Source: Guyparkeria sp. (lineage in GTDB: Bacteria > Pseudomonadota > Gammaproteobacteria > Halothiobacillales > Halothiobacillaceae). Taken from it: a stretch of DNA of 41,676 nt. The stretch spans positions 1-41,676 of the forward strand of contig JAGXGL010000052.1 of assembly GCA_024636755.1 (NCBI GenBank). The letters are read 5' to 3'. The translations under genes were made by a program, and so were the position numbers. Below the pieces are notes generated by a model. That model made no database searches, was not told where the DNA came from, and saw nothing but the letters and a program-made list of their open reading frames with translations. Positions within the stretch are counted from its first letter, which is position 1, and the number at the start of each line of letters is the position of its first letter. This document shows positions 33,422 through 38,967 of this stretch, piece after piece.

Positions 33422-33730
33422 TTAGTGCCCCCCACCTTGGCAGGGCGGCGAGGCCGGCGCGTCCTGACGCTCTTTCCACTCGGCGGGGCTGTAGGTGTGT
33501 AGGGCCAGCGCGTGGAGACCCTGTTCGAAGGCGGGTTTGAGCGGGTCCTGCGTCAGTCGATGGCGGCGGATCAGGGGCAGGCCGTCGAACCGCTCGCTTA
33601 CCACCACCACCCGGAAATGGCTCTCGACGCGGTCGCCGGCATGCTGCGTCGACTCGTCGGTGATTTCGAGATAACTCGGTTCGAGCGCGTCCCGCAGGGT
33701 CTGCTCGATCCATTGTGCGCGTGTGGTCAT
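33422..33730 (-). CDS. bolA: BolA family protein
   Basis: Small KH-like-fold protein of the BolA/IbaG group, partners of monothiol glutaredoxins in Fe-S handling and, in E. coli, linked to morphology and c-di-GMP control. Motifs: LRDALEPSYLEITDESTQHA, ESHFRVVVVSERFDGLPLIR, RHRLTQDPLKPAFEQGLHAL and ALHTYSPAEWKER, a canonical BolA pattern. It has 102 residues. A His/Gly/Cys-containing tail (CQGGGH) follows the core. It lies 41 bases downstream of the GGDEF-EAL gene on the same strand. Confidence 0.93.
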   Translation of the reverse strand: MTTRAQWIEQTLRDALEPSYLEITDESTQHAGDRVESHFRVVVVSERFDGLPLIRRHRLTQDPLKPAFEQGLHALALHTYSPAEWKERQDAPASPPCQGGGH

Positions 33731-33771: not shown

Positions 33772-35790
33772 TCAGAGCAGTCGTACGCCCAGCAACGGGC
33801 GGATGGCCTCGGCCTGTGTCGGACGACCGATCAGGTAGCCCTGGAAAGAGTGGCAGCCGAGCGCGTCCAGCAGGTCACGCTGTTCGGTGGTCTCCACCCC
33901 TTCGGCGATGATCTCCAGCGACAGGGCGTTGCCCATGGCGATGATCGCCCGGACGATCTCGAGGTCGTTGCGGTCGCCGAGGATATCGCGCACGAAGCCC
34001 TGATCGATCTTCAGCCGATCGAACGAGAATCGCTTGAGGTAGCTCAGCGAGGAATAGCCGGTGCCGAAGTCGTCCAGCGCCAGCCGCACCCCCAGTTCGC
34101 GCACGGCATCCAGCATGGTTGCCGCCTGCTCCGGGTCATGGACCAGCGCGGTCTCGGTGAGTTCCAGTTCGAGGCGCTCGGGGGGCAGCCCCGAGATTTC
34201 CAGGGCGCGGGCGACACGCTCGGCGAAGCAGGGGGCGTGCAGCTGCACGCTGGAGACATTCACCGAGACAGTGATCGGCTCGCCCGTCTCGCGACCCCAC
34301 TCGATGGCCTGGCAGGCCGCCTCGATCATCACCCAGGCACCGACCTCGACAATCAGCCCCGATTGCTCGAGGAAGGGAATGAAATCCTGTGGGCCGCACT
34401 GCAATTGCGGGTCGGGGGCCTCCCAGCGCAGCAGGGCCTCCACTCCCGTGACGGCCAGGCCGAGGGCGTCCTGCTGGATCTGGTAGACGAGATGGAAGCG
34501 GTCGTTTTCCAGGCTGTCGCGCAGGGCGCCCAGCATTTCGGAACGCCAGATCTGTCGCGCCGAGAGCTGCGGGCTGAAGACCGCCACCGGCTCGCGCTCG
34601 TTCTTCTTTGCCTCGAACATGGCCGCGTCCGCCTGGGTAAGCAGTTGGGCGATGTGGCGACTGTGGGTCGGCCAATAAGCGATGCCGGTACTGGCGGTCA
34701 GGGTCAGGTTGGTGGTCTCGAGCTCGAAGGTATGACGCACCAGCTCGCGTAGCGCCGCGCCCAGCACCTCCGGGCCGTCGTTAGGTTCGACATCGGCGGC
34801 GAGGATGGCGAACTCGTCACCGGCGAGCCGGGCGACCAGCCAGTCCTGCTTTGCGCCCAGGTCGCGCAGCCGGTCGGCCATCTGGCAAATCACGCGATCG
34901 CCTTCTTCATGCCCGTGGCAGTCGTTGATGCTGCGAAAGCGGTCGAGGTCCAGCACGGCCACGGCCGCGTGCCGGTTCTCGCGGCCCAGTTCGTCGAGGC
35001 GACGTTGGGCCTCGATCTGGAAGAAGCGACGGTTGTAGAGATGGGTCAGTTCGTCGTGGATGGCTAGGTCTTCGTATTCGGCCTGGGCGCGCAGCTGGGC
35101 GGTGATGTTGCGCGCAATCACGATCATGGCGTGACGCCGGCCATCGGCGTCGAAGACCGGCTGCTTGATCGTCTCGAAGACCAGTTCCTCGCCTTCCGGT
35201 GACTTGATCACCTCACTCTCGCGATGAAGTTCCTCGGCCTTCCAGGCGCGCTCGTCGGACTGTCGACAGAAGTAGAAGGCATCTCGAAAGGCCGGCTCGG
35301 TCAATTCGGCCATTGCATCGTCGTCCCGGCCCCACCAGGGCAGGCCCTCGAGGCGGAACAGGTCGAGCGCCGCCTGGTTGGCCAGCAGCCAGTGGCCCTG
35401 CCCGTCTTTGACCTGGATCACGTCCGGACTGGAATCGATCAGCAGGCGCACCAGGCGTTCGGTTTCGGCCAGCGCCGTTTCCGCGCGCTTTTCGCCGGTG
35501 ACGTCCTGCAACAGGTGCAACTCGCGGGGAGTGGCATCCGGGTCGGGATGCGAGCCGAGATGAAGGTGGCGGTAGACCCGACGTTCCGTGGTGTCATTGG
35601 GCAATTGGTTGACCAGTCGTGGGGACGTGCTCCCATCACGGTCGTTCAGCATGCCCTCGAGTCTGCTGCTCGCCGGCATGGAGCGCGCCGCCCGGTTGAT
35701 CGGGTGCAGTCGGCCTTCGGCGTCCCGTCCGACCAGCGGGTCGGGCAGGGCCTCGAGCCAATGCGAGATGTCATGTTGGCGATCCATCAT
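33772..35790 (-). CDS. GGDEF-EAL protein with PAS domain (c-di-GMP metabolism)
   Basis: 672 residues: a short variable N-terminus, a PAS/PAC sensor region (about 105-230; DSSPDVIQVKDGQGHWLLAN), GGDEF (about 240-405) and EAL (about 415-670). The GGDEF motif reads RLAGDEFAIL (323-327), so the first Gly is Ala. The EAL part keeps GVEALLRW (E451), ELTETALV, LALDDFGTGYSSLSYLK and IIAEGVETTEQ, so a phosphodiesterase is expected. The start MMDRQHD at 35790 (or 35787) lies 11 bases after the kinase-Rieske stop; the frame also stays open upstream, over that gene. No membrane segment is visible. Confidence 0.9.
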   Translation of the reverse strand: MMDRQHDISHWLEALPDPLVGRDAEGRLHPINRAARSMPASSRLEGMLNDRDGSTSPRLVNQLPNDTTERRVYRHLHLGSHPDPDATPRELHLLQDVTGEKRAETALAETERLVRLLIDSSPDVIQVKDGQGHWLLANQAALDLFRLEGLPWWGRDDDAMAELTEPAFRDAFYFCRQSDERAWKAEELHRESEVIKSPEGEELVFETIKQPVFDADGRRHAMIVIARNITAQLRAQAEYEDLAIHDELTHLYNRRFFQIEAQRRLDELGRENRHAAVAVLDLDRFRSINDCHGHEEGDRVICQMADRLRDLGAKQDWLVARLAGDEFAILAADVEPNDGPEVLGAALRELVRHTFELETTNLTLTASTGIAYWPTHSRHIAQLLTQADAAMFEAKKNEREPVAVFSPQLSARQIWRSEMLGALRDSLENDRFHLVYQIQQDALGLAVTGVEALLRWEAPDPQLQCGPQDFIPFLEQSGLIVEVGAWVMIEAACQAIEWGRETGEPITVSVNVSSVQLHAPCFAERVARALEISGLPPERLELELTETALVHDPEQAATMLDAVRELGVRLALDDFGTGYSSLSYLKRFSFDRLKIDQGFVRDILGDRNDLEIVRAIIAMGNALSLEIIAEGVETTEQRDLLDALGCHSFQGYLIGRPTQAEAIRPLLGVRLL

Positions 35791-35800
35791 CCCTGTTCCT

Positions 35801-37096
35801 TCATCCCCGCGGGCTTCCCGGCGAGTGTGCCTGGGGGCTGTTCGGTTCATCTCGCCGGCTTGCTCGATCGGCCAGGTAGACGCGATTGCCGACCCGTTCG
35901 AGGTCGACGGCTTCGAGTCGCTGGCCTTCACAAGGGCCGGCGGTACACAGGCCATCGTCCAAGCGGAAGTAGGCCTGGTGCACGTTGCAGCGTAGCTGGC
36001 GCTCGCCGTCGCGGGTCTCGAGAAAATCGTGGTGGTCACGCGACAACGGCGAGCCGTTGTGCGGACAGACATTGCGCCAGGCACAGACCCGCTCGCCATC
36101 ACGGACCACGATCAGCGGTGCGGGTCCGGGGCCGGATTGCTCTTGGCCCCGCGGCCAGACGCCCAGGGCGTCCACCGGCTCGAGATCGTCGAGCCGGCAA
36201 AGCAGGTCCGGGTCGGCGGCCGGATCGTCCGGTCCCAGCCCGCCCAGCCCGGCCTGGCCCAGCTTGCGCTCGGCCAGGCGCACGGCAAATTCCAGCGATT
36301 CCAGCGACCCCATTCCTCCTCCACGCGCGTGGATGAATCCGGCGATCAGCGTGTCGCCGGCGGCGATGCTGTCAATGATCGTATCGACCGGTTGCGCCGG
36401 AACATGAGCGGGTTCGGCATCGGTGGGCCGGGACAGCCACGCACCGCCACTGCCCCAGCCGAGCACCAGGATGGCCTGCGGCGCCCAGCCACGTGCCTCG
36501 CGCAGGAAGGCCGCCGGCTCCTCGAAGCCACGGCCGCGGGCGAAGGCGGCGGAGAAGAAAATGATGTCCGGGAAGGACCAGAGCTGGTCGAGATCGGGGC
36601 GATCCTTTTCCACTTCCAGCGAGATGGGCTGGTCGGTGATCCGCGCCCGGACCAGCGCGAGCATGGCGGCGGTCTCGTCACAGGCGCGTGCCTCGAAATG
36701 CAGCCAGTCGTAGCGGCATGGGTCGATCGCCATGAACGAACCCAGATCGAATTCCGGCAGGTCGCGGTAGTGCACGATGGTGCGGCTACCGGTGGCGCGA
36801 TTGAGCGTGATGTAGGACGTGGGCGCGTGCCCCTCGACCCGGCGGGCATGGCGGGTGTCCACGCCGTAGCGATCCATCAGGTCGGCGATGCGCCGGCCGT
36901 CGGCATCCTCGGCCAGCACGCCGGCAAACTCGGCGGGATGGCCGAACTGGCGCAGGATGCGCAGGCTGTTGGCGACATTGCCACCCAACTCGACCCGCTG
37001 GGCCAGCGCGCGCTGCTCGCTGTCCTCGGTCGGGTAGTGGTCGAGTTCGTTGATGATGTCCAGCGTGGCAATCCCCACGCCCAGCACGTTCGCCAT
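35801..37096 (-). CDS. Ketohexokinase-like PfkB kinase fused to a Rieske [2Fe-2S] domain
   Basis: 431 residues. The N-terminal ~280 residues are a PfkB/ribokinase-fold sugar kinase whose start (NVLGVGIATLDIINELDHYP, TEDSEQRALAQRVELGGNVA) resembles animal ketohexokinase. The catalytic motif is DSIAAGDTLIAGF (AAGD, base Asp248). A Pro/Asp/Gly linker (about 280-297) joins a Rieske domain with C344-P-H346 (RNVCPHNGSPLS) and C370-N-V-H373 (RCNVHQAYFRLDDGLC), both ligand pairs intact. The fusion is a single open frame with no break in base or codon style. The Rieske part resembles the small NirD-like or assimilatory Rieske proteins. The GGDEF-EAL gene follows after 11 bases. The role is unknown; substrate and redox partner are not evident. 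Confidence 0.87.
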   Translation of the reverse strand: MANVLGVGIATLDIINELDHYPTEDSEQRALAQRVELGGNVANSLRILRQFGHPAEFAGVLAEDADGRRIADLMDRYGVDTRHARRVEGHAPTSYITLNRATGSRTIVHYRDLPEFDLGSFMAIDPCRYDWLHFEARACDETAAMLALVRARITDQPISLEVEKDRPDLDQLWSFPDIIFFSAAFARGRGFEEPAAFLREARGWAPQAILVLGWGSGGAWLSRPTDAEPAHVPAQPVDTIIDSIAAGDTLIAGFIHARGGGMGSLESLEFAVRLAERKLGQAGLGGLGPDDPAADPDLLCRLDDLEPVDALGVWPRGQEQSGPGPAPLIVVRDGERVCAWRNVCPHNGSPLSRDHHDFLETRDGERQLRCNVHQAYFRLDDGLCTAGPCEGQRLEAVDLERVGNRVYLADRASRRDEPNSPQAHSPGSPRG

Positions 37097-37130: not shown

Positions 37131-37697
37131 CTACTTGTCCCGGCCGCGCTTGGGGAGGGTCACGATGTCGACCTGCCACTCCTCTGCGGTAGCGATCAGG
37201 CGCAGAAAGCCGATGCCGCCAAAGGCGCGCTGGCGTCCGGCCGCGCCCGGATTGAGCACCCAGGGAGTGGTTTCGGTGTCGATCACGCGCCGATGCGTGT
37301 GACCGTAGACGATCGCGCGCGCCTCGGGATGACGGCGACGCAGGCGCTCGTGGCGGCTGCTGGCCGGGTTGACCTGGTGACCGTGCTCGACGACGAGCAG
37401 GCCACCGGGCAGGTTCAGGTACGCCTGTTCGGGCAGGGTCTCGAGTAGTGCCTCGGTATCCTCCGGCCACTGACCGACGGTGTCGTTGTTGCCACGCACC
37501 ACCACGACATGGCCGCTGGTCGGTGCAAGCTGGCGCAGTTCGCCGGGGTCGAGCAGGTCACCGGCATGGACGATCACGTCCACCTCGGCAAGCAGCGGCA
37601 ACAGGGCGCGCTCGAGCGTGCCGTGCGTGTCGCTGATCAGGCCGACCACGACCCGCTCGAGGTCACCGAGATCCATCCCGGTCTGGTGAACGGTCAC
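37131..37697 (-). CDS. YfcE-like metallophosphoesterase
   Basis: 188 residues with calcineurin-like motifs in order: VVVGLISDTHGTLERALLPL (DxH), VIVHAGDLLDPGEL (GD), VVRGNNDTVGQWPED (GNND), LVVEHGHQVNPASS (GH) and VYGHTHRRVIDTETTPWVLN (GHTH). It is the YfcE/MJ0936 type of metal-dependent phosphodiesterase, active on small phosphodiesters in family members. A GTG start at 37697 is favoured by a good GGAGGGAG; an ATG at 37676 is the alternative. The start overlaps the 3' end of the permease gene by 35 bases, indicating translational coupling. Confidence 0.88.
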   Translation of the reverse strand: MTVHQTGMDLGDLERVVVGLISDTHGTLERALLPLLAEVDVIVHAGDLLDPGELRQLAPTSGHVVVVRGNNDTVGQWPEDTEALLETLPEQAYLNLPGGLLVVEHGHQVNPASSRHERLRRRHPEARAIVYGHTHRRVIDTETTPWVLNPGAAGRQRAFGGIGFLRLIATAEEWQVDIVTLPKRGRDK

Positions 37698-38844
37698 AGG
37701 CTCCCTCCCCTGGCACCTGGCGAGCCTGCCGGCGGCGCCAGTAGGCGTGAATGGTGACGGCGGCGAGCACCGCGATCGAGGCGATGCCCAGCCAGTTTGC
37801 CCCCATGTCGTGGCCGGCCGCGCTGGTGGGCAGGCTCCAGTCGAACACGCGCCACAACAGATCCAGGCCGATCCCGGCGACCAGCGCGCAGGCAATCACG
37901 GCGGCGAGATACACCCCGATCAGTCGGTTGCCGAAATGCTTGCGGAGGATGCCGAGCGTGCCGATGTTGGTCGCCGGGCCGGCGAGCAGGAACACCAGCG
38001 CCGCCCCCGGCGACATGCCCGCCACCAGCAGCCCCGCCGCGATCGGGGTCGACGCGGTCGCGCAGACGTACATCGGGATGCCGATCACCGCCATCAGCAG
38101 GTAGCTGCCTACCAGCCCCCAGGCGTTGTCGAAAAAGCCCACCGGGATCAGCACCACCGCCGTGGCGGCGATCGCCAGGCCGAAGAGCATCCACGGCATG
38201 ATGTCGATCAGCACCTGGCCAAAGGCATAGGCAAAGCCGCCGGAGAGGCGCTCCCGGGCAGTCGGGCCCGTCGGCGTGTCGTCCCCGCAGCAGGAGGCGG
38301 AGGTGTCGCTTTCCGGGGCGCAGCAGCTCGACGTCGCGGCGGGCGTCGGCGTGCTGTCACAGCAAGCGCTGTCCTTCTCCTCGCCGTAACAACCGTCGGC
38401 GGCCGCCGATTCGCATGTCTTGGCCGCGCTGGCCGGGATCGGGCCGGCCAGTCGTCCGCTGATCAGGCCGGTGACGATCGCGCTGATGATCGCCGCCAGC
38501 GGGCGGGCGATGGCATAGACCGGCCCCAGCAGGCCGTAGCTGACGCTGATCGAATCCGGCCCGGTCTCGGGCGTGGCGACCAGGAAGGCCATCGACGGCC
38601 CGCGCCCGGCGCCGGCATCTTTCAGTCCCAGCACCGCCGGCACCACCCCGCAGGAACAGAGCGGCAGAGGCGCCCCGATGAACGCGGCGCGGACGATTGC
38701 GCCGGTCGACTCACCCGAGAGGTACTTGGCGATGGCGAGTCGGTCGGAAAACGCCTTGATCAGGGCGGCGATCACCAGCCCCAGCAGCAGCCAGGGGGCG
38801 GCCTCCAGGGTCAGGAACCACAGCTCGTTGAACCATTGCGTCAT
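37663..38844 (-). CDS. SO_0444-type permease with Cys-rich metal-binding loop
   Basis: 393 residues in two membrane halves joined by a cytoplasmic-looking loop. The first half contains GAPLPLCSCGVVPAVLGLKD (CSCG, residues 63-66) and the second AVIGIPMYVCATASTPIAAG and AGPATNIGTLGILRKHFGNR, as in DUF318/SO_0444 Cu/Zn efflux permeases and ArsP relatives. The loop holds eight cysteines (C144, C152 and pairs 161-162, 174-175, 185-186), a probable thiophilic metal site. The start at 38844 has GAGGAG; the frame is open further upstream. It overlaps the phosphoesterase by 35 bases. No ArsR/MerR regulator is next to it. Confidence 0.85.
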   Translation of the reverse strand: MTQWFNELWFLTLEAAPWLLLGLVIAALIKAFSDRLAIAKYLSGESTGAIVRAAFIGAPLPLCSCGVVPAVLGLKDAGAGRGPSMAFLVATPETGPDSISVSYGLLGPVYAIARPLAAIISAIVTGLISGRLAGPIPASAAKTCESAAADGCYGEEKDSACCDSTPTPAATSSCCAPESDTSASCCGDDTPTGPTARERLSGGFAYAFGQVLIDIMPWMLFGLAIAATAVVLIPVGFFDNAWGLVGSYLLMAVIGIPMYVCATASTPIAAGLLVAGMSPGAALVFLLAGPATNIGTLGILRKHFGNRLIGVYLAAVIACALVAGIGLDLLWRVFDWSLPTSAAGHDMGANWLGIASIAVLAAVTIHAYWRRRQARQVPGEGACDRSPDRDGSR

Positions 38845-38967
38845 CGCAGATCTCCTCGTGGGCCTTTCGGGGTTGGCGTGATCTCCCCGGCAAGTGATCC
38901 CCAAGTGTCGCACAAACGCGACAGGGTTCAGTCGCTTAGGCCCGGTCGACCAGGTTATTCGCCTGGG

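Follow-up and report, generated by a model that had tools for sequence, protein, structure and literature searches.

The window, by which we mean the whole 41,676-nt stretch of Guyparkeria sp. DNA analysed here, carries on its minus strand a single open reading frame in which a predicted PfkB-type sugar kinase is followed by a predicted Rieske [2Fe-2S] domain. The frame, its parts and its neighbors are as follows.

35801..37096, minus strand: whole fusion frame, 431 amino acids plus stop, ATG start, zero internal stops
36230..37096, minus strand: predicted ketohexokinase (PfkB) domain, residues 1-289, from Pfam, profile scores and Foldseek
36353..36355, minus strand: catalytic Asp248, aligned with human KHK Asp258 as numbered in the accessible part of PMC11332825
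35873..36205, minus strand: predicted Rieske [2Fe-2S] domain, residues 298-408, from Pfam, structure model and fold search
36059..36067, minus strand: first ligand pair, C344-P-H346, from sequence and alignment
35978..35989, minus strand: second ligand pair, C370-x-x-H373, from sequence and alignment
35930..35947, minus strand: extra conserved cysteine pair, C384-x-x-G-P-C389, from alignment
33772..35790, minus strand: PAS-GGDEF-EAL protein of 672 amino acids, its ATG 10 nt past the fusion stop
33425-33730: BolA gene (PF01722), beyond the PAS-GGDEF-EAL gene
37131..37718, minus strand: metallophosphoesterase open reading frame upstream of the fusion, presumably of the YfcE type

A Pfam search of the fusion protein placed PfkB at residues 7-283 (5.7e-22) and Rieske at residues 326-392 (2.3e-8), both above the gathering cut-off, and in a single AlphaFold2 model each half is folded at high confidence (pLDDT 92.8, pTM 0.83). 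A first-pass annotation of this DNA had described one open frame running from PfkB into Rieske, with an AAGD motif containing Asp248 and ligand pairs at C344/H346 and C370/H373. The frame and both Pfam domains bear this out, and each of these residues was found at the position it had given.

The source assembly is a draft of 98 contigs, 79% complete, and a fusion found in a single strain of this kind could be an artefact of assembly or a frameshift. However, when related genomes were searched, as the first-pass annotation had proposed, a scan of a species-genome collection returned 13 loci, including six close relatives (L002-L007, with record titles of Guyparkeria, Halothiobacillus or Halothiobacillaceae) in which the same frame is open throughout at 76-89% protein identity. 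In the order of the window (NCBI taxonomy assigns Guyparkeria, which is related to sulfur-oxidizing bacteria, to Chromatiales), a profile of the whole fusion matched in 26 of 27 genomes, one of them partially. In 25 genomes the match is stop-free and spans 399-410 of the 410 profile positions; G650 is matched over positions 1-319 only, with two stops within that stretch, and G651, whose assembly is 85% complete, is the sole genome with no match. The artefact is thereby refuted and we regard it as hardly conceivable: the fusion of a PfkB kinase and a Rieske domain in one frame is real. Of the remaining loci of the collection scan, L008-L010 are fusions as well, though more distant, and at the other four (L011-L014) kinase and Rieske are separate genes with 19-23 nt between them. 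The first-pass annotation had counted two separate genes in relatives as evidence against the fusion. Such genes do occur, but in distant relatives only and side by side, while the close relatives are fused. Because the separate genes adjoin, they are a sign of a link and not a refutation of the fusion.

The kinase half is a predicted ketohexokinase. A ketohexokinase-like start had been recognized at first pass, and sequence, profile, fold and pocket residues all agree with it. The PfkB fold and motifs are present according to Pfam, the AlphaFold2 model and Foldseek. Its nearest solved proteins in a single-sequence search were ketohexokinases (9e-47); with the kinase family profile, ketohexokinases reached 275-290 bits and sulfofructose kinase 102, the other listed kinases staying at 84 or below; and the best Foldseek matches were again ketohexokinases, the top ones with TM values of 0.92-0.93 over the target. 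The likeness to animal KHK-A/C thus covers fold, sequence (~34% identity), the experimentally tested pocket residues and the catalytic motif. In contrast to the fusion, which adds a Rieske domain, the animal KHK chains matched (~298 residues without tags) stop after the kinase domain.

According to the accessible part of PMC11332825, KHK-A is inactivated by alanine at D15, N42 or N45, its activity is lowered by R141A and K174A, and D258 is the proposed catalytic base of KHK. In our family alignment (n=110, the 109 loci described below plus the window), D15, N42, R141 and K174 are kept in all 110 members, N45 in 109 (T in L106) and D258 in 109 (a gap in the truncated row L113). Two more positions, R108 and E173, are each conserved in 110 of 110. 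The structure alignment (A4) comprised 92 of the 181 collected rows, that is, the window and 180 relatives. Comparison with E. coli YihV, RbsK and a PfkB kinase beside sucrose genes (L200) showed D15 and D258 to be common to all of them and N45 and R141 to some, and N42, E173 and K174 to be replaced in all three. After the ketohexokinases, the named PfkB kinase closest in both sequence and fold is the sulfofructose kinase YihV, which is set apart by different residues at N42, N45, E173 and K174.

These residues bear on whether the true substrate is instead a different ketose, such as tagatose, sulfofructose or a ketopentose, so that the match to a fructose pocket would be misleading. Substrate shifts come easily to PfkB enzymes, and ribokinase, 1-phosphofructokinase and the other listed NCBIfam kinase models all gave equivalog scores far below cut-off. 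Nevertheless, the five pocket residues tested in the accessible part of PMC11332825 are kept in 109-110 of the 110 sequences, and the three other PfkB kinases compared lack both N42 and K174. We therefore consider a ketose other than fructose unlikely.

Since the 50 top matches listed for the whole model were all kinases, the Rieske half was submitted to a fold search by itself. It adopts the fold of NirD and of soluble Rieske ferredoxins, with TM values of 0.50-0.77 over the listed targets of ferredoxin or NirD size. It shares with carbazole dioxygenase ferredoxin, toluene 4-monooxygenase ferredoxin and NirD both this fold and the C-x-H plus C-x-x-H ligands; against the NCBIfam NirD model TIGR02378 it scored 19.4 bits, the cut-off being 74.65. 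Unlike these soluble proteins, it carries the extra C-x-x-G-P-C motif and is fused to, or encoded beside, a kinase. The nearest PDB Rieske sequence has the second cysteine only of this motif in the printed alignment. All four ligands and both extra cysteines were present in 14 of 14 fused copies, 32 of 34 adjacent copies (gaps fall in the short copies L099 and L105), 20 of 20 non-adjacent copies from kinase-positive genomes (of 21 such genomes) and 20 of 20 copies from kinase-negative genomes (of 80), and the exact C-x-x-G-P-C motif is held by 85 of 88 Rieske copies. The two ligand pairs noted at first pass are intact in the window.

How widely the two families travel together was assessed in 369 sampled gammaproteobacterial genomes, with thresholds of E ≤ 1e-40 for the kinase and E ≤ 1e-12 for the Rieske family. 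The kinase was found in 102 genomes and the Rieske protein in 139: both in 59, kinase only in 43, Rieske only in 80 and neither in 187. A kinase family close to animal ketohexokinase is thus present in 102 of the 369 genomes, which, at least for this class, is at odds with the earlier remark that ketohexokinase is uncommon in bacteria. With shared descent ignored, co-occurrence has an odds ratio of 3.2 (p 1e-6), and, again with shared descent ignored, the Rieske family occurs in 43 of 55 taxonomic families that have the kinase versus 41 of 127 others, the total of 182 being the highest family code seen. A phylum-wide sample of 299, of unspecified make-up, yielded two matches, one being the genome of the window itself and the other a further member of its class. 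Because the Rieske family is missing from 43 of the 102 kinase genomes and the kinase from 80 of the 139 Rieske genomes, neither half depends on the other, and strict dependence in either direction was rejected.

Among the 102 kinase-positive genomes, nine have the fusion, 30 have a Rieske gene or fragment directly downstream of the kinase and one has it directly upstream, which answers the first-pass suggestion to look for genomes with the domains as separate neighbors; 60 have no adjacent Rieske and two are undecided at a contig end. The linkage counts cover 109 loci, nine of them from named records that are not part of the 102, together with the window and G158; L015-L017 and L117 had been removed beforehand as duplicates. 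The 60 loci scored as lacking an adjacent Rieske include three with less than 1000 nt of downstream sequence (L062, L113, L124). Of the downstream copies, L099 reaches a contig end, and L105, a short fragment, comes from a genome (G159) outside the 139 Rieske-positive ones. In 33 of 33 downstream copies (30 sampled and three from named records) the Rieske match starts 11-80 nt past the kinase stop, and this gene order accounts for the order of domains in the fusion. Long upstream extensions of the kinase frame in L056, L064, L085, L098 and L114 were considered as other fusions and dismissed by eye as spurious frame.

In a quickly built tree of the 110 kinase domains, where change counts are blind to gain versus loss, the fused state requires at least three changes, two of them forced by starred branches, and the linked/unlinked state 22. 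Single placements on this tree are unsure, as it includes one long row (L116) and 20 rows of uneven letter make-up and leaves 38 of 107 forks open. The fusion was most likely made by in-frame joining of operon genes, and this joining probably happened more than once. In our reading, an old two-gene unit was frequently split and was fused more than once.

Taken at the level of sequence and model, the data establish two intact domains in one chain, a recurrent linkage of their genes and fusions in separate lineages. The reading we favor, and think fairly probable, is that of an ATP-dependent fructose-1-kinase that is tethered to a soluble Rieske electron carrier serving one process, and that came from a joined two-gene unit. 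The kinase half would be active on fructose, converting it with ATP to fructose 1-phosphate, which would then be cleaved by an aldolase. The Rieske half would be a soluble ferredoxin that binds a [2Fe-2S] cluster, and both halves would take part in the same process, with the Rieske domain either setting kinase activity by redox state or passing electrons to a partner other than a Rieske oxygenase.

The commonest partner of Rieske ferredoxins is a ring-hydroxylating (Rieske) oxygenase. The other Rieske matches in the window's own genome lie in frames of 120 and 211 amino acids. In four of five single-contig fusion genomes (G269, G363, G656 and G053), the other Rieske matches are all in frames of at most 258 amino acids, NirD- or PetA-sized by length alone; the fifth, G655, has one in a frame of 380 amino acids. 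With no frame of oxygenase size, the partner in the first four is unlikely to be a Rieske oxygenase. The Rieske half as donor to such an oxygenase was accordingly set aside for them and for the window's own genome, where the frames are likewise too short, G655 being excepted.

Redox control of the kinase by the Rieske half is a plausible proposal. In its specific form, the state of the [2Fe-2S] cluster or a Cys384-Cys389 disulfide would switch fructose phosphorylation with the respiratory state. The tethering of the halves and their recurrent linkage, the conservation of the extra cysteine pair and the missing oxygenase-sized frame in four of the five single-contig fusion genomes are all consistent with such gating. 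On the other hand, 43 of the 102 genomes with the kinase lack the Rieske family, and the same cysteine pair is found in 20 of 20 Rieske copies from genomes lacking the kinase, which means that the pair did not evolve for the kinase. We advance this switch tentatively.

A different possibility is that the two activities are independent and merely share a transcript: operon neighbors needed simultaneously would have been fused and the fusion tolerated, with the Rieske half a general electron carrier. Each half is also found alone, the linkage shifts often (the 22 changes on the tree), and elsewhere the slot behind the kinase is occupied in 10 loci by a pentapeptide-repeat protein and in eight by a ThiO-like oxidase. 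However, the fusion has persisted in 26 of the order's 27 genomes and is present in separate branches, which suggests more than tolerance. We find it doubtful that the halves are functionally independent.

Returning to the tethered kinase and carrier serving one process, a fuller version is that an animal-type fructose kinase was bound to a Rieske domain, probably more than once, such that the redox state of cluster or cysteines switches the ATP-costly entry of fructose; this we offer as speculation. To our knowledge, regulation of a small-molecule kinase by a Rieske domain is without demonstrated precedent. Among the papers listed in searches of openly licensed literature, none dealt with a kinase-Rieske pairing or with a Rieske-regulated small-molecule kinase. 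The pairing gives the kinase family a recurrent genetic partner with a predicted iron-sulfur center. The recurrence of the pairing, fused or neighboring, hints that fructose use may follow the redox state of the cell, and redox control of fructose phosphorylation becomes testable with one protein.

The physiological setting may involve free fructose. The fusion is the one PfkB match in its own genome (79% complete), and of seven relatives tested G269, G363, G158, G655 and G656 each have a single PfkB gene, while G666 and G053 have three. As the only PfkB kinase found in the genome, the fusion would be where free fructose, for instance from sucrose, is handled. The genome is apparently able to make sucrose, judging from a sucrose-phosphate synthase over cut-off beside a sucrose-phosphatase-like gene that falls under the specific cut-offs. 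PF05116, a broad phosphatase family that also matches E. coli and other controls, was found in 19 of the order's 27 genomes, and the eight without a sucrose-phosphatase match all have the fusion (399-408 of 410 positions). Sucrose synthase was absent from all four same-genus genomes sampled, and a strict sucrose-synthase partner in the window's lineage was discarded on this ground. Sucrose is thus not the whole story. In the class, with shared descent ignored, sucrose synthase occurs in 57 genomes (55 over cut-off), 38 of which have the kinase, and the two co-occur in 26 of 33 families. In the main text of the Guyparkeria pangenome paper, as far as it was accessible, the words sucrose and fructokinase are absent. 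In one relative (G666), consecutive genes (L200:4042-9955) encode a sucrose-phosphate synthase, a phosphatase-like protein, a PfkB kinase and a GH13-like protein; the synthase is over cut-off and the other three are below their equivalog cut-offs, and a sucrose cluster can therefore carry a PfkB kinase of its own.

No genome of the order (0 of 27) had a 1-phosphofructokinase over cut-off, G664 being a near miss at 275 versus 292 bits, and for this reason aldolase cleavage of fructose 1-phosphate would be the next step. The accessible part of PMC11519228 provides a prokaryotic precedent, a haloarchaeal ketohexokinase with the reaction proposed here, fructose to fructose 1-phosphate. The haloarchaeal enzymes are described there as only distantly related to eukaryal KHKs and as working with 1-phosphofructokinase (PMC11519228). 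Set against that published description, the window's family differs in lying near animal KHK and in the order's lack of a 1-phosphofructokinase over cut-off.

Turning to the neighbors, the PAS-GGDEF-EAL gene probably shares the transcript of the fusion. It comes after the fusion in all eight loci of the group to which the window belongs and in none of eight other fused loci, and as a lineage-specific gene it was rejected as functional context. The first-pass annotation had pointed to GGDEF-EAL and bolA as a suggestive but unproven setting; both genes are indeed there, but that the former is informative is not borne out. The window also holds an ArsP_1-type permease with a cysteine-rich stretch (37666-38913); next to it lie a LytTR response regulator and what looks by eye like a sensor kinase.

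Several other neighbors of the kinase recur, with counts that share ancestry; upstream counts exclude the five of 109 loci with less than 600 nt upstream. A protein of ~100 amino acids with two CxxC pairs, no Pfam match and, by eye, membrane helices immediately precedes the kinase in 21 loci (e.g., L139:5014-5307): 20 of 58 loci without an adjacent Rieske, one of two at a contig end and none of 43 fused or downstream-linked ones. Upstream of one kinase-Rieske pair is a 1740-amino-acid protein with cyclic-nucleotide-binding, rhodanese and FGE-sulfatase domains (L013:696-5918); this protein or its cluster mates (a loose cluster with coiled-coil rows) occupy the position immediately upstream in 13 of the 32 adjacent loci. 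The pentapeptide-repeat protein right behind the kinase is exemplified by L127:6259-6624 and the ThiO-like FAD oxidase by L129:6265-7867, the latter being followed in six of its eight loci by a regulator named by eye as Fur-like. In several genomes lacking the kinase, an ABC-transporter ATPase gene is directly behind the Rieske gene (e.g., L160:4312-5067).
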